Source: Pycnopodia helianthoides
Lineage: Eukaryota > Echinodermata > Asteroidea > Forcipulatida > Asteriidae
DNA length: 64,000 bases
Assembly (NCBI GenBank): GCA_032158295.1
Contig: CM063252.1
Location: 19,488,036 to 19,552,035 of the forward strand
Reading direction: 5' to 3'
Part shown: one piece after another, positions 2,414 to 28,481 of the stretch
How the letters are laid out: the number at the start of each line of letters is the position of its first letter
Numbering within the stretch: the first letter of the stretch is position 1
Notes under the pieces: model-generated
Database searches by the model: none
Told to the model about the DNA's origin: nothing
The model's input: only the letters and a program-made list of their open reading frames with translations
Translations under genes and position numbers: made by a program

Positions 2414-2456
2414 ATGTCGCGAATTTTGTTGGTGTTTGGATTTATGCTCACGGCGG
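2414..2456 (+). CDS. XPNPEP2: Gene 1 exon 1: signal peptide
   Basis: Encodes a short basic start followed by a hydrophobic core ([10 protein letters not shown]), a secretory signal peptide. It ends in phase 1 at a strong donor (G|GTAAGT). The paralogue's first exon has the same phase and the same kind of sequence, which supports this start over the in-frame ATG at 2252. Confidence 0.8.
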
Positions 2457-5400: not shown

Positions 5401-8400
5401 TATAAGATTACCGAATGCAAACTGAATCACAATCTCCGCGAAAAAATAAAAAAAAAGCCAAACAAACTGAGTGTTACTTCTTATTGTTTTTACTTTGAAG
5501 TTTTATCCCCCTACGGTCACCGATACTACAGCCAGGCTTGCTGCTCTTCGCAATGAAATGGCAGGAAAAGGCATTGCAGCTTATATCATCCCGTCAGAAG
5601 ACGCACACGGGGTAAGTACAGCAGAACTTTGGATAAAAGATCGTACGTGATATGGAACAGAATATATTTTCATAAAACAAATTGTAAGAATGTTGAAATG
5701 GTTCTGTTTAAGCTCCACAATCAGTGTGTTGAGAGCCGTCTCTCAGGTGAAAAAAAAATCTTTAAAAGTTGTTTATTTCTGAACATTTTGCTTTTTTGGT
5801 TTAATGTTTTTGTTTGTTTATAAGACATCTGCTCTAGCATGGCAAGGGTGGTGGGTCGAATCCCACCCAGTAATATGCCTGTGGATTTTTTTTCCATAGA
5901 ACTCGTGGAAGTGCTGAATATACAGTGCTTTACACACATAGGTGTAAGGGTAAAACCAAATTAGATTAATTATCTCCTGTGCAAATTTAGTATCTATTAA
6001 ATGGTTTGATTTGCTGTATAATAATGTGTAATTTAACGCTCGCTTGTCAACTAATTAAATATATTAGTATCAAGCTTAATACAAAATTGCTCTAAAAAAT
6101 ATGCAAAATATTAAAATATCAAAATTAATCTGGTTTGTTTATTAGAGTGAGTACGTGGCTGAACGCGACAAGAGACGCGCGTTTATGTGCGGCTTGAAAG
6201 GCTCTGCAGGTGAGATAACAAAGAACCTCCAAATGTTGTTTATTTCTCAAAATTTTTGCTTTCTTTGGTTTAATTATTTATGATTTGGGGTTTTTTGTTT
6301 TGTTTATAAGATGTTATGTTCTGAATAATTACAAGTATCCGTTTGTTTACCCTTCAATGTTTCTCCTCCCAGATTTGTTTAACTTTTTAAGACTGAAATA
6401 CATTACTTAAAGTTTCTGACAAAAAATGATTAGATTATTTGTTATGAGTGGGAAGGGGGAAGGGTTGAGAGCAGATTCCAATGTAGATCCTTGGCCATTT
6501 TGTCATATTCCCTGCCAAAACTATGGCAATAATCATTCTTAATTTTAGTTCATAAAACGGGACCCACTTCCTTTCCTTTCCTGCCTCATTTTGGTTGCAT
6601 TACTTTGAAAGGATGACAAAGTCAAGGGTTTCAACAGTTGCTAACAGTTGCTAGTGGTTGATCGGAATATACACCATTTCAGATAAAACAGCACAGCTTG
6701 GCCCAGATTTTTTGTTTACGATGTCGATTTTACACACTTTGTATTTTAGGTTATGCCATAGTGACCATGAAAGAGGCCAAACTGTGGACTGATGGACGAT
6801 ACTTCCTCCAAGCTGAGAAAGAAATGGACTGCAACTGGGATCTTATGAAGATTGGTAACTTGCTGCTCTTAACTACTGTTTTATTTTTGGTATTTATTAT
6901 TATTTGCTTATTATCAATATAGCATCCCCTGCTTTTGCCTGAATTTGCCCAAATGCACAGTGCTTGGCATACCATTTCTAGCTCACTGATAGATTTTGTG
7001 GACTTGAGGCATTTCCAAGTGGAAGTTCGAAGTTGGTTTTAAAATTGGTTGTGCCAGAGCTAGTAAACTGTCTTGCCATATATATTTGTGATGAACATTA
7101 AATTAAAAAATGCATCTAAAATTCATCCACATTTTAGCTGCTGAATTATTGTATCCCAATTGATCCCAATTAGGTTACACTTTTACCCCAATTGGAACCT
7201 TCTTATCCCAATAAAGGTACCAGCGGTGCCCAATGCAGCAACTATTCATGGGTGACAACACTATCGGTACATTTACAACCAATTTCTGTTGTACCTATAC
7301 AATACTTCCAAACTTGTTTCTGTGTGAAACCTTATTTCTAGTTCAGGTGTTTACATAATTCTTTGCAGGAGGTGGATCTGATGACCCGTCTGATTTTGAA
7401 TATTTAGCAACAACCCTTCAAGATGGAGAAGCAGTAGGATTTGACCCCACACTAATGTCTGTCAGTAAGTACTGAATGCAGACATACAATGTTGCAAACT
7501 ATTGATTTGATATTCATCTTTGACAATTCAATGTGGATTTGTTGCCCTAAAGCTAACTCTAGTTGTACCTGGCCTCGTATGAGCTTCATATAATAAACTG
7601 GCCTTGTATGAGCTTCATATAAAACTTCATTCTTTATTCAGACGTGAATGGTGAACATTTCCAATTTGAATATCAAGTTATGGTTTTTTTCTAATTGTGA
7701 ATGGGATTTCCAATATCAGGTTCCTATTCCATGTACATGTAACTTCCAATATCAGGTTCCTAAATCCCTGTACATGCAACAACATTTATGTGCACTTAAT
7801 TCCAAACACACACACAAAGTGCCAGACTGTTTCAATCCTCATTTGGGGCCAAATGTATTTGCTTGGATAAAAACAAGATGAAGACACTAAGAATTCCAAA
7901 GTTTCTGCAACCCTGGATCTACATTCTCTTTCATCAAGTTAAATTTGTTGAAAGGTTCACTAGGTATCCATTAATAGTTACACTCACTCCTACATTACAG
8001 GAACACAGGCAGTTAGTTATTATTATCTTCAGCTTGCATTGAGCTATGGTTGGTTATAGTGGGTAAAGCACAGGCAGTTTGTTATTATTATCTTCAGCTT
8101 CCATTGAGCTATTGTTGTTAAGTGTGTAAAGCGCTTGCCTCTCACCACTGTGGCCCTGGTTCGATTCCTGGTTAGGGCCATATGTAAGTAGAAATGTGCA
8201 GTGGTTCTCTCCTTCAGGCTTTTTTTCTGAGCCTTCCAGTTTTCCACACTCTGGAAATATCACACTTTTTGATCTCCAGCTGTGCTCTGTGGTCATGGGT
8301 CAATGTGGCTGGCTGCCAAAGGTGCCTTCACATTGACCCATGACCACGGAGTACAGCTGGAGGCGCCTTCACATGCCTATGGCTAAAACACGCTGTAGCC

Positions 8401-11400
8401 GCGTGTCCTTCACAATTCGGCTTCTCAGCTGCCAATAAGGATGATAAGCCTACCAAAACATTATTGAAGACATTTAATGTGTCTTACCTTTTCTTGCCCC
8501 CCCTCCTTATAGGTGACTATCAGGCCTATGAGGAAGCTTTCAAGGAACAATCATCAACCAAGACAATCAACATCACATCCATCAGCGAAAATCTTGTTGA
8601 TGGAATCTGGGATAGTCAGCCAGCATACAATTCTGAAACAGTCATCACTGTCTTGGATGCAGTCAAGTACACCGGTATGATAACTACAGAAAAACAAAAT
8701 CCAATAGAACATGTTGATATCAAGTTTTTGTTTAAACAACACATGTCAAGTTCATTCTGTTAAGTGATAGCTTTCAAGTTCAAAGCTGATTTGACTGAGC
8801 GGTGAGGAAAACATAATCTTGTTCAGGTAATCAAATGAAATATCAGACTTGCTGATTTTTACCGAGTTCTCAAGATATAATTGACAGAATATGTGTTGAC
8901 ACACCAAGCCAAGCTGGTTGTTGTAACATGTGTATCGAGTATCAACTTAACCATGAACTGCTTCTCCTCACACAGGAGTATAAATAAGGACCAGGAAATT
9001 TGAAGTGTATGACACCTTTAATGACAAAACTTGTTTTGTTTGTTTTTATGAAAGGTGAGACTTGGCAGCAGAAAATCATTGATGGTGCCCCAGGGCAGGA
9101 GAGTCTTCGCAAACAACTCCAAGATATGACAGGAGACCCAATTACGGGCATAGTTATTAACAAGCTTGATGAAATCGCATGTAAGATACGATTGAACAAT
9201 CTCTTCAGGCCTGTGATTTTATCTTTGAGAGAGCAAGGCCATTTGTATTTTGCAAGTGGCACAACCATTGGAAAAACTTAAAGTCTATGGGAAACTTTTG
9301 AAGGGGCACTGAGGCAAAGACCAGGGCAACAGAGGCTATGGCCTCCAAGACCTTCGTGTAATTCACAGATTTTGTTTATTTATGAGGGCATGTGTGAACC
9401 AAATTTAGGCGATGCGAACAAAATCAACACAGGACTGTTTCTTATGATTTGTGTATTGGTCTTTGATCTGATTATATTTTAATTGATTCACTGACCTACG
9501 CCCAATTTCATAGAGCTGCTTAACGGCCAATGTTGTGCTTACTCTGCGAGTTTCCATTGTTTTTTGTGCTTAGCTATTTTTTGTGCTTAAGCAGCTTAGT
9601 GAAATTGGGCCCTGTCTGCTCTAAAATCCTCTGACTAATAATCCAAATCCATGTATAATCAAATCCACTTATCAGAATTGCTAATCTGATATTAGGAGCC
9701 AGTAATCTTCATAAATAATACAATTCAATCCAATTTAATGTGATTTCTGTATATCAAATCTAGCTCAGGTAGGTACTTTTCTTAACTTATCCGACCAGTT
9801 TGTATCTTAGTTGATCCCAAAATAAATTGAGCACAAAACTGAGGCAGTGAGTGATATGAAATAATCTAGACTGACAAAAGGGACAAACAATTCTCCACAA
9901 AGTGTCTTTCTCAGGTAACCTGAAAAATTTGTAAATTTTTTGTCCCTTTGTTTTTCAGGGTTGTTTAACATCCGTGGTGATGATATCCCATACAATCCAA
10001 TGATTGTCTCCTATGCCATTGTAACCTTGACGGAACAAATGTAAGCTCCTATAAAATCTTGATTAAAGTTGAAGTTATTTTCAAGAATATTTATTCTATT
10101 TTCAGCATCAGTGTGGAGTGCTATTCCCCAAAGTGACACTTGAATCCTGTTATATACATAGAAACCACGAATTCTACATACCTTCATGAACATTGAGGAA
10201 ATGCCCAATACCGTGTCCTGTTCCGTGGTTATAGTCCAACCCTCCTTGCCACAAATTGCCTCTTGCGTATGCATCAATATCCCGCCCTGATCATATACAC
10301 AAGATATAGTTCCAAATTATCAATGATGTGTTCATCAAAAGTCACTTAGTTGTAATACTTGCTCCCATTTATCTAGGAACTTTATTTGCAAACTTGACTC
10401 AGTGCCCAACAGTGCAATGCAATCCAGGTGCTCAAGGACAGTAGCTTTTAGGAGAGTAAAGGCATCTAAGATCACTCTGATAAATGTGCACATTTGAAAT
10501 TTGTCTCATCTTAAACAAAACTAGATGATAGATCAAGTTATCTTTACGCACAGAAATATAAAAACTAACTTTTTCTGATATTCTTGCAGCCTATATCTCT
10601 ATGACAGCACATCAACAAAAAGAGTCCCAGATGCAGTTAAAACCCATCTCAATTTGGACCTCACTACAAACAACTGTATATCCACACGTAAGTACAACAC
10701 AAACAAGACCTTATATCGAGACTTTCCTACAGAATTACCTTGAATATAAAGGGGACCACCAAAATGGCAAAACCATGGCAACAATGTGTATCAAAACAAT
10801 CAATACAGATACTTATCAGATATCATTATCAATAATCTAAAATTCAGAAACAAAAGCTTGTGATTTTTTTAAGACCTCTGAAGTCATGTATAAATAAAAC
10901 AGTCTTCTAAAAAAATGAAAAGTTATGTAACCAGACATTTTCATTTCGAGGTGTCAGGGCAAAGACATATAAATGTAAACTTTTGTATACATATTATAAT
11001 TTTTTATTACATTTGGGTGGGGGGTGGGGTGGGGTGGGGTGGGGGCTATTCAATTTATTGAATGATTCATTTGTGCAATTTTTCGATCTCATTTGGTGGG
11101 GGAGGGGGGGGGATGAGTTCTGAGTTGGTGGCCCACACCCCCCCCCCCTCTCCTCTGGTATAATTAATAAGAGGAAGTGATTGATCTGGAAAGAACCAAC
11201 TTATTTTCCCAGCATTTGATTTCATCAACAGCTTGTGTCGTAATCAAAGACTACGATGAGTTTTTCCCTGACCTAACAACCATGAGTGACGCATCGAGTG
11301 GTAAGATGCTCGTTAGTAATGCCGCAAGTTATGCTGTCTATGATGCTGTGGGGGTAAGTTTCAATGGGGAGCAGTGTTTTGCTGAAGTGTTTAAAGAATT

Positions 11401-14400
11401 TTAATTTGTGTTGATCCTTATTTTAATTCCCCCTCGGTTCAAAGCAATTTAATCAAGGCTACATTATGATTTGATAAACATAACATTTCCTCCTCAGACA
11501 CCACCCCCCCCCCAAAAAAAAACAAAACAAACAAAAAAAACAACAACAACCCAAAACCCCAAAACATAATAACACAAATTAAATAAATGATGTCATTTTT
11601 GTGAATATTTTGTTGATTTAGGATAAGCGCTACGTAGGAACTTCTCCGCTTCTTCTCATGAAAGCAGTGAAGAGTGAAACGGAGGCTTTAGGCATGGAGA
11701 AAGCTCATGTAAGACCAAGTAAAGGCATTTCTTGACTGGTTTGGGTAAATGGATTACCATACTTTAAACACTTTAGTCGACAGTTAAAAGACGATAAGCC
11801 TTTGGGATGGAGGAAGCTCATGTAAGGCCGAGTTAAGGCATTTCTTTTAACTGGTTTGAATACGTGAATAACCAAACTTTAAGCATTAGTTGATAGTTAA
11901 AAGACCAGAATCTCATGTAAATGTAGGAGATGATCAGTTTTAGAAAGTATCAAATATCATGAATAGTTACAACTAACAAACTCCGATCTTTCTTTGATAT
12001 TTTACAATATTTTCTGAATAGGCCATGGATTCCACCGCATTGTGTAATCTTGGGGCTTGGATGCAAAAAACCATCGACAGTTTAGAGGTAAGATAAAAAA
12101 CACTTTTTATATCTGATTTAAGAGTAATACTGATTTTGTAAATGATCGGACTTTTATGTACTAGGCCTATTAGCTATTATTGAAAACACACTGACTGTTG
12201 TAAATTTCAACTTATCTGGCAATAAATTCAGTGCAAAACCATGTACTACCTTCCGATTCATATAAAGTATGATTGAATCTATAATACTGCTGTAACACCC
12301 ACACTTTCAGATTATGCATAGTGCTTCGATAAAGCCATTTATTCACCCTTTTAATTACAAATTAATTTGCAGGATCCAATGGTAGGAGACAAAAGTGTGA
12401 TCAGTGAGCAGATTGTTATGCAGAAATGTGTTGAGTTAAGAGCGTAAGTATACATTACTTACCGAATAATGCACTTTACATAATTGGAGTTTATTACTCA
12501 CATTAACTTTTTGTCTGATTGTTTTTCAAATTCCCTTTGCCTTTATTTAATAGTGATTTTGAGGACAACAGAGGATTAAGTTTTGGTACCATCGCTGGGT
12601 TTGGACCCCATGGCGCCATCATTCACTACACGTAAGTAGTTATTTTTGATTTCCTTTTATGTCTTTGTAACTCATTGCCATAATTGCTTCTCTGCACCAA
12701 GGAGTTGATAATGTTACAGTATGCTTGATTGCTGGTAAAAGGATATATTTGTGTTATAAAAGTGAAGTATTACATTCATAGCACTTTAAAGTGGTTTTAG
12801 TGTTGACTGTTTCTTGAAGCTAGATACAAGACACTTTTCGTTCCTCTCTTCTCGCAGAAAGTCATGACAATGGATAATGTAAATTGATTCTAGATTTCAA
12901 AATCAAAATTATCATTACTATTGCTATTATTTTTTGTTTATAGATCTACACCAGAAACTGATGTTGCCATAACAAAGGCCAGTACTTTCCTTTTGGATTC
13001 TGGAGGCCAATACCTGTAAGTAAATTGAATCTAGAATATTTTGCTGGAAATTTGAATAGAAAGCAAACATAACAACACTTTGATAGCCAAGTTTATTTTG
13101 GAATTTTTCTTCCAGCCTATTATAAGCAACTGTTTCTGATTTCAGGCAAGGTACATGCGACATCACCAGAACCTTCCATTTTGGTACTCCAACCAATTCA
13201 TGAGGGTGAGTAACTCCCAAATTTAAAACTCACAAACACTTCACATAACAGCCCCTGCAGTATCTTCCAAGTGAACAACATATAACAACATATTCACAAG
13301 TGTTGGTAATACACATAACTTGTAGTTTGGGGACAAAGTTTCTTGCAGTATCAATTAGAGACAGAGGGGGGGGGGGTCGGGATATTTGCACTTTCGATGT
13401 GGGTTCCGAGTTCTTTAACATACACTGTAAACTTCAGTGTGAAACTAGTACAAGAAACTCTGGAACTTGTCAACTTTGTGTCATGGCTGAGTGGATAAGA
13501 GCACCGCACTCAAGCTCTGGTGTTCTGATCAGCAGAGTGTGGGTTTGAGTCGTGGTCGTGACACTTGGGTCCTTAAGCAAGACACTTAACCATTATTGCT
13601 TTGTCTTCGGATGGGACGTAAAGCCATACGTCCTGTGTGTTGTGTAATGCTTGAAAAAAAACTCAGTGCACTTATCGTAAAGAGAAGAGGTTTGCCCTGG
13701 TGTTCCTGGTTTTATTAGCTTATTGTGCCACAGCACCTTGTTAACCATTACATGGTGCTACATGAAGGAAAAAGGTCTCATACTTCAAAACGTAGCTCCC
13801 TATACCTTGCAGCAAAAATTATATGAGTGTCACTGAGTGACGTATTTGAGCACTACAGTAGAAGCCACTATTATTATTATTATTAAAGCTACCCCTGCCA
13901 AGGCTTTGAATTCAAACCCACTCTCTGACAACTGCCTGAGAATCCATGTACAATTGCACCAGATTGCTTGTTTATCACACTCCATCAAGATAGTAATGAT
14001 TAGCCTATAAAACCACTAGTCATATTGGTGAGGATCCCCTTGGAATTAGAACATAACCTCTGCATTGTTTGGATTAGTTGGCAGTGCAGCACTGAAATAA
14101 ATCTATCAAACTCAAAGAGAATGGAAGATCTGTGGTGCACCTTGATGAGCTTTTTTTTCTCTAATTTCTGTCTTTAGGAATCATATACTAGAGTTCTACT
14201 TGGAAGCATTGACTTGGTCATGGCAGTGTTCAGAGATGGAGTGTATGGTACGTTCCTCATTCTTCATATCAACCAGCATTATTTGACATGAACATTCACA
14301 GACATATTATCCTCACGCAAACTTTACCCTTGATGCGGATTAAAACAATCTGTTAACATTAATTTTGTTAAATTTCTTAACCACTTTAGGGCAGTATTTT

Positions 14401-17400
14401 TTGTTTAATGACCACGGCTCTGTGCAGTAATATTTTGGGGGAACTTCTGAAATAAATTGTTTTTAAAATACCCTGACTAAACAAAGTGAAGACAATAAAT
14501 GCTCTCTTTAAATGCACCAAGAATTTTTGTTCTCTTTTGAGTCGGCCAATTAATTCCCAAATGCTTACTACAATGGTAAACAATGTGGCAAGCCTATCGA
14601 TCTCTTGTTATCCTCCTTTATACAACAAAAGGACGAAGGTCTGGAACTAGGGATTACACAATAACTCAAAGAAAATGGGAGATTTTGAGCATGTATCCCA
14701 ATACCCTTTGGCCCTCTTTGAATAAGGGAACAGAAGCATAGCATGCTACACAATGGAATGTCTGGGCGTATAAAGATGCCAATTGGTGTTGACCTCATAC
14801 CAAAACCACAACAATTCTGGGTGTAACAAAAAAGTTTTGCGTAAATCTGTGCCTTCCAGCGTTAACTGGTTAATTTCTCTTAAAGGGAAAAAATAATGGC
14901 ATTTGGTTTTGAAAGACAACAACATTCATGATTTATCATCCAGTTTTGTTTAAGATGAGAGAAATTTCAAATGTGCAAATTTATCAGAGTGTTCTTGGAA
15001 GCCTGTACTCTCCTAAAAGCTACTGTCCTTGAGCACCTGGATTGCATTGCACTGTAGGCACTGAGTCAAGTTTGCAATTAAAGTTCCAGGGTGACATTCA
15101 TAGTTCTGAGATAAATGGGAGCAAGTATTACAACTAAGGGACTTTTGATGAACACATAATTGATAATTTGGAACTATATCTTGTGTAAATGATCAGGGCG
15201 GGATATTGATGCATACGCAAGAGGCAATTTGTGGCAAGGAGGGTTGGACTATAACCACGGAACAGGACACGGTATTGGGCATTTCCTCAATGTTCATGAA
15301 GGTATGTAGAATTCATGGTTTCTATGTATAACAGGATTCAAGTGTCACCTTGGGAAATAGCACTCCACACTAATGCTGAAAATAGAAGCCAAGTACCCGA
15401 ATCTCGGACAAACCAGTCAAATTTTACGAACATACGCACGCGTACATGTGTCCAAGTTTTATGTTTACTCGCGTGTACTGACTATACTGCCAGTGAAGTT
15501 TTGCGCATCGATGATGCGGTGATTGTGTAAGTGGTGGAATGTATGTCCGACAGCCGGGTACTTGCCGAGCAAAATTGTGACTTCATTAGTGCGGAATGCT
15601 ATTGTGGATTCTGATAATTTACTAATGATGAGATATAACATTGGTTTTGAATGGGTATATTCAGTTCAATACTCCAGACAAAGTCCTCTCCAAAATGTAA
15701 CTGAAACGCATTGAGGATTAAGGAACAATTATTGACAGTATTTTGGATGCTGTTCTTTACATCACATGCATGATAAAGCATTGTATACTCAGTACTTTTC
15801 AAATCTTGAGAAAAAGGGGATTGGATAATCATGGACAAGGTTGACATTGAAAGGGAACAGCAAGGGAAAAGGGATGTGTTTATGACAAATGAGACCATTG
15901 ACATCACTCACCCTTTTTTCATGAAAGAAAGTGATATTTCCTCCGTGAATATGTCCCGACTTTTTCTAATGGTTCCTAAAAAGAAAACAAAACAAAGAAA
16001 ATGCACATTAATAATCATTATGCAAATACAGGCGAAACTTTTGACCAATCAAAACACACAAGCAGACAATATTGTGGATTTTCATTGCAAGTAACTGTAT
16101 TAAAATGCTATCTTTAATGTGAATACTTTGGAGCATCACAATTTGACATTAATTGATCCCTCTAAAAGTAAAAAAGTAACATCATAACTAAAGAGCTTGG
16201 CAGACGGAATTCCCAAATAAACGATGTCAGGGGTCGATTTCACAAAACTCTTCCTAATTTAGGACTAGTCCTAGGCAATGCTAAGAGATAGGACTAGTCT
16301 TAAGTAACTGGTCTTAACTTAAGACTAGTCCTATCTCTTAGCATTGCCTAGGACTAGTCCTAAGTTAGGAAGAGTTTTGTGAAATCGACCCCTGGTACCA
16401 TGTCTTCTTCAATCACAAGTAAACACTGACTTAGAATTCCTCAGACTAAACGCAGCGTTGCATTGTCACATAAATCGGGGCAAGCTTTTGCAGCGCAACC
16501 TCTATATCTCCTTGTGCCACAGTACATACCATTGAGAATTGTGTGTGGGTGTTTGTTGTCTCTTTTATGCAACTATTAGACAAACCTTTCTCCTGGTTAT
16601 GTGACACAGCAACACTGGATGTAGTCTGGGGAATTCAAATTGAGCACCAATTGTGACTGAACAAGGCAGTGTACCAGACATCATTCAAAGGCATTGGAAA
16701 GCCCTCTAATAATGTCAGTTTCAATGTTACTTGAACCAAATTGTGGTAAGAACTGATAGCATCAATTTATTTGGGACAGTGCAATGATATAGCACTTTTA
16801 CCCCTACGGCCAGATTTGGGTAATAACCATTCTATTTACCTCAGGTTTGTGTGTATATTATGTACCTTTTTGAATTTATGAAGAGTTCTATTCAACCACT
16901 ATGTTGAGATAAAACACAGAAAAACTTGTTTGAAAATGTTTTAAAGGATTGAACAGAATGAGTGAATGATCTGTTTTTATCAATGGCATATTAAGATGCT
17001 GTTGTTGTTGTTTTTTGTTCTACAATTGTTTTCTTCCATTAAACATCTTTTATTTTAGTAGGCCTATGTCCTTCATGCTTTCATTTTCAGATCATAAATA
17101 AAAAAGGCATTTTTTCCCCCTTAAATACATTGTGCAATTATTCAGATTGTTGCTTATGTCCAGGCCTGGAATAGACCCTTCCCATGAAATATGTAAATTA
17201 CATTCACGCATGCGTACAGACGCTGATGGTTGGCAAACGCCATAGAGTTGTGCACAAGGCAGACGCACAAACGCATGTGCGCCACGCCACCATCAGTCCC
17301 ATGCAAAAAGGCGCGATGTTCACTAATTTTGCCCACCAGTAGGGAGAGTGCGCACGCGCGATGTTCAATTTGCATATTTCATGGGAAGGGTCTATTATAC

Positions 17401-20400
17401 GAAGGCCGCAAGGCCTCTATTGCCCAGGTCTTGGCCTTGGTGCCCCTTCCAAAGCCTTTACACTTTTAAATTTTGGAATAGATGGATTGCGCATGACGTC
17501 ATTGACCACCATCTTTGATGAAGAACAATGGAAACATGCACGCGTGTACGCGCTGCGCACAACTCTCAGCCAATGATAGCCTTTCACGCGTACACATTTC
17601 ATCAACGATGGTGGCCAATGCAAGGGGTCTGTGAAGTGCCCTTTCAAAATGAAAATGGCCTTGCCCTTCAAAGATGAAATTCCAGGCCTGTATGTCTCTA
17701 ACATTTTTAAGTACTTTGTATGAGTTTCTACATGTATGGAAACCATGGAGTGCAATGGTCTCAAGTCCAGATAGTGAGCTTAGACCCATCCTTGCAGGTT
17801 ATGAAAGCAGTGTCTGAGTTGGTGGCTTTGTCTACGGCTAGCTCTGGATCACCACGTCAACATGCATTGGAGCATAGGCTGCAATTAGCAATACCCTTAG
17901 CAACAGCAACAGCCGCAACCGCAAATGCGACCTAACACCTAATGTTTCATTGCAAATTAAAGCCAATCTGATTTGACAGGTACATCAGAATTGGTCTCGT
18001 GGAATAAGCAATGAGTGTAGAAAGCCATTATGTCATCATACTACATGAGCATCTTTTTTAGGGGTTAGAAAATAACTATCCTGTTAGTAAGTGATGGCGT
18101 TTTGAAGCCGGTAGTGCAGTGTAAATAAATGGTATACATACATGTTCAAACATGTATACATACATGCTCCCAAACATCAGACTAACCAAAAGGATAGTGA
18201 TTTGTATTATGACATTACATTTGCTATGATTAGCCCAAGTATAGCAAGCTAACAACCATCAAGACTGGCATTCAACCCACATAATGGAACAGTACTTTTT
18301 CATTCAACCTCGTTCTCAGGGTTGATCAATCTCGCTGCGCCATTTTCCCCCCCAGCATTATTCCAGCATGCCTTGCTTCCTCCTAACTCCTGGTATTAAT
18401 TTCAATGTGTGAATATATGGCACATTTAAAATAGGCCTGTAGTCGATCCACTGTACCACAGCTGTGGTAGTCCCCAAAAAAGGCATCAAATCAAAAAGCA
18501 ACTTGTCGCCTGTCATTCTTCTTTGATCTTGTGACATGTCTAACTGTATGCAGTTAAGGGTGGTTGTGTATAAACATGATCTATTTGAAATGAGATTTGC
18601 ATTTTGACAAGCTAGTGTGTACTCAGCTTCCAATAAGTGCCATACAGGTGCTTGAAAGTTTTTAACAGGTGTGCACGCAAATGAGTCGCTATGAGGAGAC
18701 AATCAGCGTTGTTTGTACATCCCTACCAGGGGTTAGTGACAAGAGGTATCGATAAAACTCACTGCCCATTGTAGCAAGGCATGCTTTCCATTTACATCAA
18801 AGATGGTTATATCAGTCTTAGGTGGTTATTTCGTGTATCTATACTCAATTCACTGTGTCAACAATTCACTTTCAAATCAATGAATAAGATACTATAATGC
18901 TATCCTTTAATATTCATCATTGCATCAAGTGCTGAAACTCCAAGTGTTCCCCACTACTAATTAAGTTTATTAATGTAGGTCCAGCCAGGATCAGGATTGG
19001 AGTTAGGGAAGGAGAGAAACCATTACAGACAAATATGTTTCAATCTGATGGTATGTTGAACCCCATCCCGCCTTCTGCCCCCACCCCATGCCTGTCTGAG
19101 TGGTACCAACCCATAACCTCCAAAATGCATGATGCTTTTAACTGGCACATCCATCATTTGCATTTCTTGCCCACCCCGTTTTTGTTTTTGTTTTTACTTT
19201 CTTTTTCACAGTTGTGTGGTAAGTGACACAGTCTACTTATTTTTATTCGCCAAAGTTGTTACTAACAATTTAGTCTTGAGTCAAGACGCTATAACATTGT
19301 GTATTCATCAGCAGTAGAGGGCACTATCATTAGACAACCCACTACTGTACAGTTGCCCAAAAGTCTGATTTATATGTAACAATTAAATAACCCAAAACAG
19401 AGATATGGTGAGCCCTCATTGTCAAATATATTCACCTTTGACTTTTGGGGTAGTAACAAACTGCAACATCTACCTCATGCAGCAAATACCTAACCAATGA
19501 GGTACATGGTACCTACAGAGCCTGCCGACATCCAAGACCAAGGCGTTCTCATAAAACAAAAACACCTTGTCTATCAATACACAACAACTACCACACCTCA
19601 ATTTATACAAATATCCCACTATTAACTTCACAGGACAAAGTTCAAGGTTCAAGGTTCAATTTTAAGGTCTGTCATGTGAAGAGCTTCACGAATCAGTAAA
19701 TGGAGGGTTTTGTTCCTGATATTTTAATTATCAACTGATTTTCACATCAGATCCCATAAATGTTGCCGACTATGAGGGTGAACAGAGTTTACGTTCAAAT
19801 GTGTTTCTTTCAAATGGTATGTATGACTAAAATGACTAAATAGAGACTGAAATGCACTGCTGTGGCTCACATAGTTCTTAACGCATTTACAGATGCTCTT
19901 TAATCCTCTCAATATCCTCTTTTATCCTCTGATTCAACACGCTTGAAACACACTCTTTTCATTTAAAGGCTTTTGAGGGCAATAACTTCTGGGTTGTTTG
20001 ACCAATCTCATAAAAAAATATGCATATATTTTGTTATATGAAAGTTCACTTCATACAAGGCTAAAAGCCACTCTTGGTAAGGGGCTACAAGAAGAAAGTA
20101 TTTCAGATGAAAATAACTTCTTAGGGTTACACACCCAAAGTATCAATCAATCAGACGAGAAGTTTCCATATACACTTACAGACACCGCTCCTGGTTGGAG
20201 GGAAGCAATTATTCTCAATGTAACCCCCAATTACATACATGTATCTAGTCTTAAAGTAAAAAATGTACTCCTTGGGGCAGAGAAGAAAATTGTCCTCACC
20301 TTCAATCATATCAGCAGTTTCTATCCTCACAGATACTAATGCACTCCTAGGTGGAGGGAAGCAAGTTGTACCTACACTCACTCAATCACACACGCAAAGT

Positions 20401-23400
20401 TGATCCACAACGATAAAAGAGCACTCCTGTGGAAAGAGAAGCAAACTTTCTTTATCATATCAGCACTCAATCAAACAAAATATCTATATCCTTGAAGATA
20501 CTGCTCACTAAATATTATCAGTTGAAAGTTTACTCCAAGGTGGAGAGAGGCAAACCCGCCCCAGCAATCAATCACAATAACGATTACTATCCTGGTAAAT
20601 ACCAAACCATTTGAACAGCATTTATCCTCAAAGATGCCTATGCACTTCTGGGTTGAGAGGAGTAAATCTCTCATGGTATCATTATACCAGTCTTCCATTC
20701 TCTTTAATTTCAACCCAAACATATCTTTGGGGTCATTTATTACAACACCAAAAGTTCATAGCCTTTTCTTGGCATGATACAGCAATCAGATTTCACTCTC
20801 AGAGCTTTCTTAAATCCCTAATATCCAGACCAGAAATGCAGGTCACAAGTAAGATGCCATAGAACCCAAACTAAAAGGCATGTTAGCAGGTTGTAGAAGT
20901 CCATGAACAGTACCATCAAGAGGCTGAATGGGGTTGCCTCAATTCTAACTAAGGGTTTCTGTTAAAGAGAGCCTTTTACGTTGATACACAATATTAGCAT
21001 CTTGGCTCCTGACTGCTATCCCCTATGTATTCCTACACCTCATTTTTTCATCCTATCATACTAACACAACAGGTCAAAAGTCGAGGTTCAAGGTTCAACT
21101 TTTAGGCGTCTCATCTGAAAAAATACATGAATCAGTATGCAGAGATTTCTAATCTATTCAAATTGTATTCAAACGTATTTGTAACTTGACAACCTCGGAC
21201 TTATTCTCTCATCACCTGATATCTAAATCAGATCCAATAAATATTCATGACTATGGGGGTGCAGAAAGTTTCCGTTTAAACGCCTTTATTTCAGATGGTA
21301 TGTATGGCTTGAGATTGAAATGCATTGCTGCCGCTCACATTAGAAAATCTTAAAGCCTTCACAGCTGCTCTTAAAAATTTAACAAGCATCTCCATCCTTG
21401 AATCATCTCACACTGTGAATGCTTATTTTAGAGCTTGTGATTCAGCCTGCTTGAACAACTTTCAATTAAATTTTTAACACAAAATTTCTTTAAGGCCTCA
21501 TAATCATTCATTACAGCACCAAAATGTTATAATCAGCTCTTGGCTTGCTACAGCAATAGAAGTAGGTAAGTTCCTAATCCCTAATTTATAGAATAGGAAC
21601 GCAGATAATAACTAGAAATGCACAAGTAAGGTTGCCTTAGAACCCATACTAAAAGGTAAGTTCTGTTAACTCCTTCTATATGCAGGTTGAAGAAGTTCCT
21701 CAACAATAACCATCAAGCTGGGTTGCCTAATAGTGCAAACAACATTTCTCACTTTCAATTTCTCTTTTTTGTGTGTTTTTCCCTCTCTGCTTTTTACAAT
21801 GAATATTTGTAGCCCTGTCATCTTTCCGTTCAAACTTCATTCAATCCAACGGTAAGCCAACACAACAAATTTTACAAACAATTCTATCCCCAAAGAGCTA
21901 ACCTTTGTTATAAACTCCTAGCAAGTGCCCCACGATCGAGTTGATGACTTAAACAGGGCATTAAATCTGGCATAATGGATACCAGGTAACAAATCAGAAC
22001 TGAAGATATGTTTTTTTAGAGCAGTAGACAGTGATGGCCTTTACACTACAAATCTAGTTGATTCTTTTTATTGGGGGGTATTTTTTAAAAAAAGCTCACT
22101 TACAGCATACTGCTCAATACCACTTATCCCCTCCCGAAAAAAGATTTGGTACATGTTTTAATTTTAGACAATCAAATGGACAATTGTACTGTTCTTCCTG
22201 TTATATTGACCACATATCTTTAAAAATCTGGTTTTCTAAATGACCTGTTTTGAACTGAATTAATGTTGAGGTTTGCTATAACCGATAGTAAATCGACGAT
22301 AGTTACTTATGTAGTTCCTGTAATCAACGTATGTATAAATGTTCAAATGACACAAATTCTGCTTCACCAAACAACTATTTGAGAATAATTGGACAAGATC
22401 AATATGAAAACCAAGTTCTGAATGTGGTCTAGTATAACTCACAACATCACTTATCTACTACAAGATGATATGACTGGGTAACAGGTTAACAGGCAAAAAG
22501 TGTGCACAGATTTGTGAGAAGAAAAAAAAGAAGATATAACAAAGAATTGTGTGCAAATGCCACAGAACAATTTTCAGTACTTCTGAAATTACAATGTAAA
22601 ACATACATTTCACAATCAAAGTACTGACAACTTTGCCTCTACAAGATGCCCGGTTATGTACAGTGTTACTCTTTGATATTATTCAGAGGATATCAGGCCT
22701 TGAATTAACCCACGGCAACCACAGCAATTGCTGTGGTGCCCTGTGCTCTTGCTGTGGTGCCCCTTTGGGCAAATTTGCTGTGCCCTTTCAAGAGTTCAAG
22801 GCCTGAGATATTGTGCTTATACTTTACTATTTTAATCAATATCTCCAAGGGTAAACACATGTCATACTAATGAAACATACAGTCATTTCAATTCATTCCT
22901 TGTGTACATTTGATACACGATCCAAAATAAATTATCACTATAAACAACATTATCAATATCGATGTCAAATCATCTTCAATACATTGTCAATATGGATCAA
23001 CACCGTTTATCGATACTTTGAAAATAAACTTGATGTCGTTTTACTTTGAAAAATATTGGGTCTTAATGTTTGGAAAATCCCAACTCTCCAAGTCCAATAA
23101 TCATGATTTCATCCAGTGAGCAAGAATCCTTGTTTCTGATTGTTGTGGGGTATATTTACCTATCCCACTCCTGCATCATGAAAGTTATTCACACATGTAC
23201 ATGCTTACGTCACTCATTTAAAGATAAAAAAATAAAAATATAAAAAATTGTCACTGTTTACCAGCACACATCAACATTCACCAAGACTAATTTATATTTC
23301 AATCTTTCAAGAATATAACATTCTAAAGCTTAAAGGTAGGGTCATACTTTGGTAAGTACTCCAGAAACTAATGGCCATAAAAACTTACTTAACAAGAAGC

Positions 23401-26400: not shown

Positions 26401-28481
26401 CACAAAAAAATAGGAATCTGCTAAAAAAGCAGCTTTCTTCAATATTTAAAACAAACTCTTTGGTTAATTTGGATTTGGGGTAAGGTATAGCATTGGTTGA
26501 TGGCAAATAAGAAATCTAACTTTCTTTGATACATGCAAGAAAGCTAAATCCTCGGAACCTTTAGTTAATTATGCGGGTTTTGTTGAACAAAAAATGTTGA
26601 AAGTTGAAAGGTTTTTGTAAAATCACTTCACATTTCTTAAAATCGACCTCAACTTTGACAGAACCTTTTAACAGAAAACTCTATATACCATTCCTAAATT
26701 ATTAAATGTTGCATGTAGTTTGTTTTTGTCTCAACTGATGCTACACCTGAACTCGAACAACTTTGAAACTCTATCCAAATGTTACATTAATAGAATCATT
26801 GTTGGTTTAATTTGGCAGAGCCCGGATATTATGAGGATGGTTCTTTTGGAATACGTATTGAGAATGTCATGAGAAGTATTCCAGCAACTGTTGCGGTAAG
26901 AGACAACTATAAAAGTTCATCATTAGGGAGGTTTAGCTGCACGTTACGTGATCAAAAACGTGAACGTGAACGTGAAAAAAATTTGTTGTAAAAATCTCAC
27001 GTTTTAAGCATACGTGAAGTTACCATTTCTCATGTCAGGTACGTACGTGCAGACGTCATACGTGAGCATGAAACAAGCCCAAAGTGGTGACGTCACCTAG
27101 AAATGACACAATTTTCTGACGTTTACGTTCACGTTTTTGCTCGCGTAACGTGCAGCTAAACCTCCCTATTATCTCACAGAACCAGCTTTTGAGCATTTTG
27201 GTTTAGGGCCGAAAAAAGAAACAACTTAAAATTTAATTATAATAATAAGGCATTTATAGGGCACCTTTAAACATCGTTTCAAAGTGCCCAACACTATTAC
27301 TACCCTTGTTCATTGGGACCCAGTGCATTCCTGAGTCAGTTTCAATTCCTTTGTATGCAACACCGGCAGCCAAATTTGCGCACAGGTTCATTCACATCAA
27401 CAATCTCTACCCTTGCAGGTACCCATTTAGTCCTGGGTGATTAGAAGCAATTTTAGTCAAGTGTCGTGCCTGAAGAACACAAGTGTCACAACCGGGATTC
27501 GAACCAACACTCTGATGACTTAGCCATCAAAGCCCAATTTCATAGAGCTGCTTAAGCACAAACAGTAGCTAAGCACAACAAAATTATGCTTACCGGAATA
27601 AGGATACCAGCCAAAATACCATGTCCCATGTACAGTTTGTGACTGGTATCCTGCTGATTTCTGCTTAGCAGAAAATTGTTAAGCAATATTTTCTGCTTAA
27701 GCAGCTCTATGAAATTGGGCCCAGAACTAGAGTTTGATGTTCTAGACCACTCAGCCATGACATGCTACAACTTGATTTATCATTAGAAAAAAACATGAAA
27801 TTAACATCTGTTTGGGTGTAGAAGAAACAAAAGGTACTTACTTCATGTTGTCCTTGGGTGCTTTGAGTGCAAACTGCTGCAAGGGTAATGTGAGGAACCT
27901 GGTTTTTTAATCTATAAAGAAAAAAAACCTAACAATGACTATGATTTCAATTGCCTTCTATCTCAGCATGACTTCAATAACTACAACTACATGACATTCA
28001 AGATGATCTCCCTCGTGCCATTTGAGGAAAAACTGATTGACTTCACATTGTTCAACAACAAACAGGTAAGAGCAAACAAATCACTACACTTATGTAGAAA
28101 ATTGTATGCACATCTTGATTTCAAAGTTGAAAAGCAGATTAGCATTATGCTTTATTAGAAGTATGGATGTTGCTCGAAATCTGGATAATTTTGATTCACT
28201 TGTAAAAAACAAAATATATTCCTGAACAGTAATGCATTGAGTATTCTTTACCTCCCCAGTTGAAATGGTACAACGAGTATAACCAAAGGATCCGTGATGA
28301 GATAGGGTCCCAACCAATGCTCTCTGCAGAAGGCAAGGCATGGATGATGAAAAACACGAACCCTGTTAAGTACACCTTTGAAGTTGAACTTCCTGGGGTG
28401 GTAAGCAGTGGAGAGATGAAAGCACCCTGTGTGGTAACCATCTTAGTTATGCTGTTCAGTGCACTGTACTCTTTCTTGTAA
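2414..28481 (+). CDS. XPNPEP2: Xaa-Pro aminopeptidase 2-like, secreted/GPI-anchored, 23 exons (gene 1)
   Basis: Removes the N-terminal residue when proline is second; M24B metallopeptidase at the cell surface. Exons: 2414-2456, 3577-3695, 5501-5611, 6146-6209, 6750-6854, 7369-7464, 8513-8674, 9055-9180, 9959-10040, 10590-10687, 11232-11353, 11622-11708, 12022-12087, 12373-12443, 12554-12631, 12944-13015, 13146-13205, 14178-14247, 15197-15301, one of four exon-20 versions (18979-19050 first), 26819-26895, 27967-28065, 28260-28481. All introns are GT-AG and phases agree everywhere except exon 17. About 735 residues: signal peptide ([15 protein letters not shown]), two creatinase N-domains (about 55-400), pita-bread catalytic domain (about 430-680), and a hydrophobic C-terminus ([16 protein letters not shown]) typical of a GPI-anchor signal. 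By spacing to human XPNPEP1, metal ligands are D495 (LLDSGGQ), D506 (CDITRT), H569 (HGTGHGIGH), E604 (EPGYYEDG) and E618 (GIRIEN). Exon 17 contains a frameshift, described separately. Confidence 0.9.
3577..3695 (+). CDS. XPNPEP2: Gene 1 exon 2: basic linker after the signal peptide
   Basis: Found by phase and by comparison with gene 2. The acceptor follows a CT-rich tract (3553-3570) and the donor is GTAGGT. The exon runs phase 1 to 0, exactly what exons 1 and 3 need. Its end ([19 protein letters not shown]) matches the paralogue's RKRRTTDDVRDCRLPV, including the Arg-rich run and the single Cys. A second acceptor six bases downstream (start 3583) is in the same phase, so the first two residues are uncertain. 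Confidence 0.75.
4212..5114. mobile_element. Non-autonomous DNA transposon (903 bp) with 15-bp TIRs
   Basis: Ends are perfect inverted repeats (GCAGGCGCGGTTCTA at 4212-4226, its complement at 5100-5114), flanked by a 6-bp direct repeat TTTAGA (4206-4211 and 5115-5120). The interior is C-run rich at the left end, AT-rich in the middle, and has no transposase ORF. It lies in intron 2 of gene 1. Confidence 0.75.
5836..5940 (+). repeat. Degenerate tRNA-derived SINE fragment
   Basis: Contains a tRNA B-box-like GGTCGAATCCC and the tail phrase with ATGCCTGTGGATTTTT and GTGCTGAATATACAGTGC. The same sequence recurs inverted at about 36045-36215, which shows it is dispersed. Intron 3 of gene 1. Confidence 0.5.
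8041..8370 (+). repeat. SINE-like unit with direct repeats and a long hairpin
   Basis: Two adjacent copies of a segment containing TTATTATTATCTTCAGCTT (near 8017 and 8082) precede a tRNA-like part with GTAAAGCGCTTGCCTCTCAC and GGTTCGATTCC. From about 8276 to 8360 there is an almost perfect hairpin: GTGGTCATGGGTCAATGTG pairs with CACATTGACCCATGACCAC around a loop of roughly 20 nt. It sits in intron 6 of gene 1, about 150 nt before exon 7. Confidence 0.55.
9501..9611. mobile_element. Short MITE, family CCCAATTTCATAGAGCTGCT
   Basis: Palindromic ends (CCCAATTTCATAGAGCTGCT and its imperfect complement ending in AAATTGGGC). It is the shortest of seven copies of this family in the window; the others lie near 27.5, 29.3, 37.1, 41.8, 44.9 and 48.4 kb. 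Confidence 0.65.
10094..10533 (-). repeat. Inverted copy of gene 1 exon 19 with flanking intron
   Basis: Reverse complement of 14930-15387. Positions 10182-10286 reproduce exon 19 (105 nt) with no difference that I can find, including the adjacent AG acceptor and GTATGT donor. The intronic flanks differ by scattered substitutions and by about 20 nt present only in the 15.1-kb copy. It lies in intron 9 on the strand opposite to the gene, so it cannot be spliced into the normal transcript. Inversion polymorphism, recent duplication with gene conversion, or misassembly could each explain it. Confidence 0.9.
12944..13015 (+). CDS. XPNPEP2: Gene 1 exon 16: first metal-ligand Asp
   Basis: Encodes the strand ending [10 protein letters not shown]. 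The Asp in LLDSGGQ is the first dinuclear-metal ligand of the M24B family, and the second follows 11 residues later in exon 17 (TCDITRT). Phase 2 on both sides, as in the paralogue's exon 16. Confidence 0.85.
13146..13205 (+). pseudogene. XPNPEP2: Gene 1 exon 17 carrying a 1-nt deletion and in-frame stop
   Basis: Encodes the second metal-ligand Asp ([14 protein letters not shown]). In the incoming frame it reaches TGA at 13201-13203, four bases before the donor. The paralogue's exon is 61 nt where this one is 60, and exon 18 needs the frame that one extra base near 13197-13199 would give. Flanking splice sites are intact and every later exon is in phase. This is either a sequencing or assembly error, a segregating null allele, or very recent decay. 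The rest of the gene shows no other damage. Confidence 0.8.
13482..13887 (+). mobile_element. tRNA-derived SINE, about 405 bp
   Basis: Starts with a tRNA-like head (A-box GGCTGAGTGGATAAGAGC, B-box-like GGTTTGAGTCG), continues with a unique body (TTAAGCAAGACACTTAACC) and ends in an ATT microsatellite (TATTATTATTATTATTAAA). A second copy, inverted, lies at about 53668-54093. Intron 17 of gene 1. Confidence 0.75.
14930..15387 (+). repeat. Plus-strand arm of the 4.4-kb-spaced inverted repeat (contains exon 19)
   Basis: Matches the reverse complement of 10094-10533 over its whole length except a short indel near 15090. The two arms enclose exons 10-18, so recombination between them would invert that block. 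Confidence 0.85.
15197..15301 (+). CDS. XPNPEP2: Gene 1 exon 19: metal-binding His exon
   Basis: Encodes the helix and strand with [16 protein letters not shown]. The second His of HGTGH is the third metal ligand, and the later His in NVHEG matches the conserved proton-shuttle His of the family. Phase 1 on both sides. It ends at the codon split with exon 20, so the residue after VHE depends on which exon-20 version is used. Confidence 0.9.
16229..16393. mobile_element. Near-perfect palindromic MITE (165 bp)
   Basis: Both halves read GGGGTCGATTTCACAAAAC inwards and pair along almost the whole length, with a short centre near 16305-16320. The same terminal sequence bounds a 1.5-kb element at 60287-61763, so this is likely a deletion derivative of that family. 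Intron 19 of gene 1. Confidence 0.75.
17159..17690. mobile_element. Nested inverted-repeat elements
   Basis: Inner element 17174-17392 has TIRs AGACCCTTCCCATGAAATAT and TA on both sides (17172-17173, 17393-17394), so it is mariner/Tc1-like in target choice. A second hairpin, 17501-17619, has ends related to ATTGACCACCATCTTTGATG. Both lie between inverted copies of CAGGCCTGGAAT-like sequence. No transposase is present. Confidence 0.6.
17780..17935 (+). other. Exon-like open frame of unknown origin
   Basis: After a plausible acceptor (CATCCTTGCAG, ending 17797) an open frame [18 protein letters not shown] runs to TAA at 17935. It ends in an Ala/Thr-rich tail ([12 protein letters not shown]). 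Composition looks coding-like, but I do not recognise the protein, and in the phase leaving exon 19 the sequence hits a stop at once. It may be a terminal exon or a processed fragment of another gene; chance is also possible. Confidence 0.25.
18979..19050 (+). CDS. XPNPEP2: Gene 1 exon 20a: active-site loop, canonical version
   Basis: 72 nt, phase 1 to 1, acceptor TTAATGTAG and donor GTATGT. Encodes [16 protein letters not shown] then TNMFQSD. This matches the family segment between the His exon and the Glu exon (GP...L..GM...DEPGYY). The final G joins exon 21's AG to make the codon for the metal-ligand Glu. This version keeps the conserved Gly-Pro after VHE, so I take it as the default. Confidence 0.8.
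19751..19816 (+). CDS. XPNPEP2: Gene 1 exon 20b: alternative active-site loop
   Basis: 66 nt, phase 1 to 1, acceptor TTTTCACATCAG and donor GTATGT. Encodes [12 protein letters not shown] and LRSNVFLSN. It begins with Asp instead of Gly and is two residues shorter than 20a. The exon and its introns are homologous to exon 20c and its surroundings (repeat extends roughly 19620-20000 against 21080-21440). No stops, same boundaries: a candidate mutually exclusive exon. Confidence 0.7.
20170..20720 (+). repeat. Degenerate tandem repeat between alternative exons 20b and 20c
   Basis: Five or six diverged units of roughly 90-110 nt recur, recognisable by a core like CACTCCTxGGTGGAGGGAAGCAA followed by a stretch with CAATCA and ATCCT. 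Examples lie near 20189, 20344, 20424, 20530 and 20643. No protein is encoded. The position, between two alternative exons, makes a splicing role possible but unproven. Confidence 0.5.
21232..21297 (+). CDS. XPNPEP2: Gene 1 exon 20c: alternative active-site loop
   Basis: 66 nt, phase 1 to 1, acceptor ATATCTAAATCAG and donor GTATGT. Encodes [10 protein letters not shown] and FRLNAFISD, alignable without gaps to exon 20b. Many of the differences from 20b change the amino acid, yet the frame and both splice sites survive, which argues that it is still used. Confidence 0.7.
21813..21851 (+). CDS. XPNPEP2: Gene 1 exon 20d: short alternative loop
   Basis: 39 nt, phase 1 to 1, preceded by a long pyrimidine tract (21765-21794) and a TTTGTAG acceptor, followed by GTAAGC. 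Encodes [13 protein letters not shown], whose second half matches the end of 20b and 20c (FRSNxFxSN). It lacks the first nine residues of the loop. It could be a functional short version or a decayed copy. Confidence 0.55.
22690..22810. repeat. Dispersed repeat with inverted CAAGGCCT ends
   Basis: Ends read AGGCCTTGAATTAACC and GTTCAAGGCCTGAG, with internal repeats of TGCTGTGGTGCCC. Related sequence occurs near 47912-47990 (CAGGCCTCGAATTACATGGC). Intron 20 of gene 1. Confidence 0.5.
23334..23714 (+). repeat. Dispersed repeat, CATAAAAACTTACTTGGTAA family
   Basis: Carries the family landmarks (ACTCCAGAAACTAATGGCC, AAAACTTACTTAACAAG, GAATCTGAGAAA). Other copies are at about 28698-29080, 32027-32390 (minus), 58464-58760, 59278-59640 and the split copy 60217-60286 plus 61764-62045. 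Non-coding. Confidence 0.6.
25320..25430 (-). mobile_element. tRNA-derived SINE (GGCTATATGGCTCAGTCGG)
   Basis: On the minus strand the order is A-box (TGGCTCAGTCGGTAGAGTGC), B-box (GGTTCAAGTCCC), then the family tail TTTTCTTTGTTCAACCCTA. Acceptor-stem pairing is lost, so it is a SINE and not a tRNA gene. Relatives on the plus strand lie near 36.6, 45.45 and 45.75 kb. Confidence 0.7.
26819..26895 (+). CDS. XPNPEP2: Gene 1 exon 21: two Glu metal ligands
   Basis: Encodes [17 protein letters not shown]. The first Glu is completed across the splice (G from exon 20, AG from this exon) and the second lies in GIRIEN, 14 residues on, the spacing seen in human XPNPEP1. Phase 1 to 0, donor GTAAGA. Confidence 0.9.
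26936..27166. mobile_element. Mariner/Tc1-type MITE (231 bp)
   Basis: TIRs GGGAGGTTTAGCTGCACGTT at both ends, flanked by TA (26934-26935, 27167-27168). The interior repeats ACGTGAACGTGAACGTGA, making an imperfect long hairpin. It begins only 40 nt after exon 21. Confidence 0.75.
27240..27530 (-). mobile_element. tRNA-derived SINE
   Basis: Shares CACATCAACAATCTCTACCC and GCAGGTACCCATTTAGTCCT with copies at 30520-30840 (same orientation) and 38815-39050 (opposite). The tRNA-like head is at the right end on the minus strand (GGTTCGAATCCCGG). Intron 21 of gene 1. Confidence 0.65.
27532..27720. mobile_element. Palindromic MITE, CCCAATTTCATAGAGCTGCT family
   Basis: Best-preserved copy in the window. 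Ends GCCCAATTTCATAGAGCTGC and its complement pair, and the interior halves (TAAGCACAACAAAATTATGC; TTGTGACTGGTATCCTGCT) recur in the other copies. It directly abuts the SINE at 27240-27530. Confidence 0.75.
28260..28481 (+). CDS. XPNPEP2: Gene 1 last exon: C-terminal extension and GPI signal
   Basis: Starts after TACCTCCCCAG and ends at TAA (28479-28481). Encodes the last conserved element of the domain ([16 protein letters not shown]), a short stalk, then a C-terminal hydrophobic segment ([16 protein letters not shown]) reaching the stop. A terminal hydrophobic tail with no cytoplasmic residues is the usual form of a GPI-attachment signal, as in vertebrate XPNPEP2. No poly(A) signal is visible close to the stop; AATAAA-like sites occur from 29250 on. 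Confidence 0.85.
   Translation: MKWYNEYNQRIRDEIGSQPMLSAEGKAWMMKNTNPVKYTFEVELPGVVSSGEMKAPCVVTILVMLFSALYSFL

Follow-up and report, generated by a model that had tools for sequence, protein, structure and literature searches.

A 64,000-nucleotide (nt) stretch of the Pycnopodia helianthoides genome (assembly GCA_032158295.1, contig CM063252.1, positions 19,488,036 to 19,552,035; the window, with positions counted from its first letter) carries a plus-strand gene whose product is an Xaa-Pro aminopeptidase of the XPNPEP1/2 kind, predicted to be secreted or glycosylphosphatidylinositol (GPI)-anchored. Four candidate exons for one active-site loop (a, b, c and d) lie in tandem within it, between the exon carrying a second-shell His and that carrying the fourth metal-ligand Glu. 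From the sequence, we consider it probable that the loop exon was multiplied within this one gene in sea stars, that one copy is normally chosen per transcript, and that the resulting enzymes would differ in the rims of their S2'–S4' subsites. The loop, sitting on a symmetric 1-1 exon of its own, would have been multiplied in tandem into a slightly basic a-type and an acidic b/c-type, with a further duplication of the latter giving b and c, and with d as a third copy, now degenerate. Transcripts would normally include one loop exon under tissue control, yielding enzymes that may share a catalytic centre and differ in their preference after the scissile X-Pro bond. It is a more tentative proposal, which we hold as somewhat doubtful, that a single sea-star gene gives at least three surface aminopeptidases through loop choice, kept since the split of Asterias and Acanthaster, with a like arrangement in the neogastropods Nucella and Babylonia.

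All four exons are open in phase 1-1, are preceded by AG and followed by GT, and remain in frame when joined to the His exon. Exons a and c end in Ser-Asp and exons b and d in Ser-Asn, each plus a G that, on joining to position 26819, completes the same Glu codon within a common ...S(D/N)-E-P-G-Y-Y. These data confirm the lengths, borders and frame of the four exons as first given in a prediction made from the window's letters (the original prediction), which was also right about the identity of the enzyme, the position of the loop and the assignment of the Glu as a metal ligand. Splice sites were scored with a matrix for which the remaining exons of the gene supplied 19 donors and 20 acceptors. 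Donors of a, b, c and d scored 7.2, 7.2, 7.2 and 9.0, and acceptors 6.0, 8.7, 2.8 and 2.5, whereas the gene's other sites, each left out in turn, scored from 0.6 to 12.2 (donors) and from -4.4 to 15.7 (acceptors). The acceptors of c and d are weak but tolerable, and every site of the four exons lies inside the range of the others.

A scan of both strands of the window gave 233 candidate phase-1-1 exons, the nine best being listed for each reference. Against the alternative loop of Acanthaster planci, the top three distinct exons were b, c and a (scores of 90, 80 and 51), matches far beyond chance; the best other candidate, at 24, was the loop of a minus-strand paralogue. Exon d was not among the nine best listed for the Acanthaster loop; compared with b it scored 31, ranking first among the listed candidates once a, b, c and the versions nested in them are set aside. 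Nested rows at 24037-24135, which end in -STE, were set aside by eye, and a strict scan of 15301-26818 revealed no fifth loop exon. When fragments were spliced from the His exon to the Glu exon through a, b, c or d, the Pfam M24 domain was recognised with 59.2, 57.9, 52.8 and 43.3 bits, respectively (cut-off 23).

Table 1 Features of the aminopeptidase P gene and its surroundings in the window.
Feature	Positions	Strand	Length	Remark
First coding exon, signal-peptide start	2414..2456	+		matches N-terminus of Asterias amurensis P0001
Second coding exon	3577..3695	+		in frame with exons 2414-2456 and 5501-5611
Sixteen exons E2-E17, N-terminal and middle domains	5501..14247	+		AG/GT borders, compatible phases except 13146-13205
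Inverted His-exon copy with flanks	10094-10535 vs 14929-15387			91% over 462 columns
Exon E16	13146..13205	+		one-base frame break, early stop in this assembly
His exon	15197..15301	+	105 nt	ends VHE+G
Loop exon a	18979..19050	+	72 nt	24 residues, family-like
Loop exon b	19751..19816	+	66 nt	22 residues
Loop exon c	21232..21297	+	66 nt	22 residues
Loop exon d	21813..21851	+	39 nt	13 residues, without family Pro, probably diverged third copy
Piece of b-to-c interval recurring in c-to-d interval	20698-20920 in 21461-21717	+		E 4e-17, 64% over 266 columns
Glu exon, fourth and fifth metal ligands	26819..26895	+		starts AG CCC GGA
Last two exons	27967-28065, 28260-28481	+		hydrophobic C-terminal tail
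Second aminopeptidase-P-like gene	51626-33842	-		first Asp ligand kept, four ligands lost

Loops could be parsed in 269 of 282 family proteins, and all 269 have Pro at position 2 and a length of 19-28 residues, as do a (24 residues), b (22) and c (22). Among the 13 unparsed proteins, P0058 has two loops, P0013 and P0245 carry inserts, the record of P0022 ends or breaks off, P0167 is without the motif, and P0067 has a wrong motif and no loop; the other seven look ordinary.

With the b isoform of the plus-strand gene as query, the closest protein matches of the window were sea-star records. Taken at full length, this query is 83% identical to the Asterias amurensis protein, 70% to that of Acanthaster planci and 67% to that of Patiria miniata (7213 of 7990 scored candidates passed, and the best 120 of the 7213 were examined). 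Each of these three orthologue records, all representatives of 90% clusters, has one loop. Those of A. amurensis (P0001) and P. miniata (P0003), both named 'isoform X1', have a-type loops, identical to exon a at 23/24 and 20/24 residues; that of A. planci (P0002), named 'isoform X2', has a b/c-type loop (DPINIGDYSGERSLRRNVFVSD). Judged by sequence, both loop types thus occur in sea stars, in different genera. In a search confined to loops b, c and d and the Acanthaster loop, 7994 proteins were scored and 46 had an E value of 10 or less; two fell below 0.001, namely P0002 itself and P0017 of the sea cucumber Apostichopus, whose similar loop (GPINIGNYPGEQPMQTGVFLSD) apparently belongs to a separate gene copy. 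The Apostichopus records X2, X3 and X4 were rejected as proof of alternative loops, as X4 seems to combine parts of two copies of the gene, and Acanthaster P0013 was rejected as a variant loop, since its extra stretch is inserted before an ordinary one. In snails, the predicted Nucella lapillus protein (P0058) has two loops in tandem with a phase-1-like join, alike at 15 of 26 residues. The loop of a Babylonia protein resembles the second of these (17/26), and a predicted Babylonia areolata model is without any loop. These predicted proteins suggest that the symmetric loop exon was doubled in snails too.

The kinship of b and c extends beyond the exons. They share 50 of 66 exon bases and 12 of 22 residues, pieces of their flanks are about 71-78% identical, and their local score of 636 exceeds the best of 200 shuffles (302), bearing out the earlier proposal of homology that includes the intron flanks. 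The sequences indicate that b and c are a tandem duplication including those flanks. Each is nearer to the P0002 loop (15/22 and 14/22 residues) than to the other. Pieces of the interval between b and c are found again between c and d (Table 1, and a second piece, 19843-19903 with 21311-21375), so that c and d are each preceded by a similar stretch. Exon d occupies the third array position and is too diverged for proof by DNA; its only ties to the array are the repeated interval and 6/11 or 5/11 residues identical to b or c. When exons with 250 nt were compared, DNA homology of a to b, c or d, and of d to b or c, did not rise above shuffles (25, 121, 66, 92 and 108 of 200 shuffles scored as well for the five pairs). 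The kinship of a and b, seen at the protein level only (score 45), fits an older duplication. As tandem homologous exons of the same phase, b and c form the kind of set expected of a mutually exclusive cluster, to which d is weakly tied.

It could be supposed instead that the loops came from tandem gene copies merged by rearrangement, a history that the minus-strand paralogue nearby (51.6-33.8 kb), the hybrid appearance of the Apostichopus records and the inverted copy of the His exon (10182-10286) would suit. We regard this as highly improbable, however: no plus-strand match of the gene's other exons was found within 15302-26818 at E values up to 20, and intron sequence common to the b-c and c-d intervals is arranged in tandem.

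Counted from the alignment and from His498 and Glu523, which in the human enzyme are a second-shell residue and the fourth metal ligand (PMC5774706), the loop corresponds to Gly500 to Asp522 of human XPNPEP1. According to a 2026 study of the Plasmodium enzyme, the sole S2' difference in the human protein is Gly503, and in S4' human Tyr506 corresponds to Pro661, a residue in contact with the P4' group (PMC13100289). For C. elegans APP-1, apstatin is described as directing its C-terminal residues at a solvent-exposed, unmodelled loop, 505-509 (PMC4404410). At the positions of Gly503 and Tyr506, read by eye with no gap assumed, a has Arg and Ile, and b and c both have Asn and Asp; the net charge of the loop is +1 in a and -3 in b and c. 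Because the loop charges and these residues differ, a change in P2'-P4' preference is proposed, and a switch of primed-side specificity would be the likeliest function of the loop exons. Structural models of the a-type P0001 and the b/c-type P0002 were of good overall quality and had a mean predicted local distance difference test (pLDDT) score of 87.3 and 85.4, respectively. The closest solved match of the P0002 model is human 3ctz (40% identity, template modelling score 0.89 by target). In that model confidence within the catalytic domain is lowest at the loop, with residues 588-592 below 50, and the P0001 model has a firmer hairpin there. The low pLDDT of the b/c loop may just reflect fewer like sequences in the alignment, and it was not used as evidence.

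A number of results weigh against the choice of one loop exon per transcript with consequences for specificity, and they are gathered here with the alternatives on which they bear. All 16 of 16 combinations of loop-exon inclusion, full skipping among them, stay in frame, and the introns between the loop exons are 515-1415 nt long, so that exclusion is not forced by the anatomy; with AG/GT borders on all loop exons, incompatible splice sites offer no means of exclusion either. In a search for docking RNA, 11 of 12 flank blocks paired no better than shuffles (10 shuffled sets per block, equal sets with 280-282 windows per shuffled set; the shuffles keep two-base blocks, not exact dinucleotide counts). 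The exception, block 18900-18960 before exon a, beat all 10 shuffled sets and has its partner near 15462. An earlier signal in 10 of 12 blocks came from unequal sets (~281 windows compared with 120 shuffled) and was gone with equal sets, and shared partners near 26.1 and 22.7 kb were discarded as windows that pair well with most probes; none of this pairing was taken as evidence. Of the exclusive splicing originally predicted, alternative use of the loop is supported by the Acanthaster 'isoform X2', whereas neither the frame, nor the introns, nor docking RNA enforces exclusion. As to that isoform, the other isoforms of Acanthaster fall with X2 in one 90% cluster and may or may not differ from it in the loop. 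Among the listed loops of P0121-P0189 a short-fragment search found none of b-, c- or d-type.

The same freedom of frame would suit cassette exons, included jointly or skipped to give longer or missing loops, of which the two-loop Nucella and loopless Babylonia models could be examples. Both models are predictions, however, and may be annotation errors; two loops occur in none of the three sea-star orthologue records, and every family loop that could be parsed (269 of 282 proteins) is of 19-28 residues. We consider cassette use quite unlikely.

Other results bear on the possibility that exon a alone is used and that b, c and d are decaying remnants of a duplicated exon in a failing gene. The frame of this gene copy is broken at exon E16, a break absent from the original prediction, whereas the homologous records P0001-P0003 read through the same stretch. 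The copy here may be a null allele, a pseudogene or an assembly error; given intact splice sites and exons elsewhere in the gene, and a protein as close as this one is to that of A. amurensis, the break is taken to be recent or an error of the assembly. Exon d departs from both family rules, having no Pro and falling 6 residues short of even the smallest loop parsed, and no d-type loop was found among the 269 parsed. Of the four exons put forward originally, a, b and c therefore fit the family, whereas d is doubtful, may be a decaying copy, and probably plays no part in making an active enzyme. Decay would also be consistent with the acceptors of c and d, which 63 and 73 of 616 intron AGs, respectively, equal or exceed. 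Exons b and c are conserved no better than their flanks, and their ratio of nonsynonymous to synonymous rates is 0.48, a weak figure from only 16 differences. Against decay, b and c are open and retain the Pro at position 2, the length and the splice sites; they also share 14-15 of 22 residues with Acanthaster, near the 70% whole-query identity to P0002. We judge the use of a alone unlikely.

As regards specificity, the Plasmodium counterpart of Gly503, Ser658, is placed in the study at about 6.3 Å from the inhibitor, without direct contact (PMC13100289), and the b/c-type loop of Acanthaster has a charge of only -1. With these points set against it, the choice of one among tandemly multiplied loop exons is still the reading that we favour.

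In the plus-strand gene all five metal ligands are kept (in the human enzyme Asp415, Asp426, His489, Glu523 and Glu537; PMC5774706), the first two within LLDSGGQY and GTCDITRT of exons E2-E17, and the C-terminal tail, from which the GPI reading derives, resembles a GPI signal. The intron before exon a contains an inverted repeat at 16228-16394, similar to a miniature inverted-repeat transposable element, with 78-nt arms that are 99% complementary and 11 nt apart. Within the inverted copy upstream, which the original prediction had not mentioned, the 105-nt His exon itself is exact (10182-10286), and by its sequence this copy could form a duplex with its counterpart at 15197-15301 in the unspliced transcript. 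The minus-strand paralogue looks, from its ligand positions, like a pseudo-enzyme, with GTTQIART (Asp to Gln), HETGNG (His to Asn), SN-G-PGYY (Glu to Gly) and LRIS (Glu to Ser); a contig protein in the database, P0032, has a partly similar ligand pattern. The region of the paralogue also holds tandem repeats with a period of 26 nt (34762-35464) and a tandem array of an 81-nt unit (39991-41665, 18 overlapping 300-nt register copies listed), at which a long open frame lies on the plus strand (39906-40526).

X-Pro peptides, bradykinin among them, are trimmed by aminopeptidase P. If the primed-side rim is indeed exchanged by splicing, a single gene could determine which peptides each tissue destroys, and the natural series of loops would be a ready test of the contribution of S2'-S4' to specificity. 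The sea-star enzyme shares with XPNPEP1 and XPNPEP2 (M24B; human 3CTZ, C. elegans 4S2R, P. falciparum 5JQK) its three domains, five metal ligands and the motifs HGTGHG...VHE...EPGYY...GIRIEN; its loops are unlike the human one at the Gly503 and Tyr506 positions. Alternative loop exons were not found described for the aminopeptidase P family in the open-licence literature searched. Outside enzymes, the insect inhibitor gene serpin-1 (Manduca) reportedly encodes its reactive-centre loop, the part in contact with the partner protein, in several alternative exons. Closer parallels are found in two enzymes. In coq-2, one of a pair of exons (6a/6e) replaces a part beside the active site, and the pair, with one general and one special form, is described in several phyla (PMC7434440). 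This case differs in being a prenyltransferase with two exons and with RNA and exon-removal evidence (PMC7434440), compared with four candidates known from sequence in the sea-star peptidase. ACSL6 and ACSL1 have two mutually exclusive exons for a short motif at the fatty-acid gate, and forms that omit both are also reported; these are mammalian acyl-CoA synthetases with a single pair (PMC1543647). Exon choice at a substrate site is thus already known in enzymes, and would be new, within the literature searched, for the aminopeptidase P family. If the reading of alternative loop exons is true, a peptidase joins coq-2 and ACSL as an enzyme whose substrate site is altered by the choice of exon.

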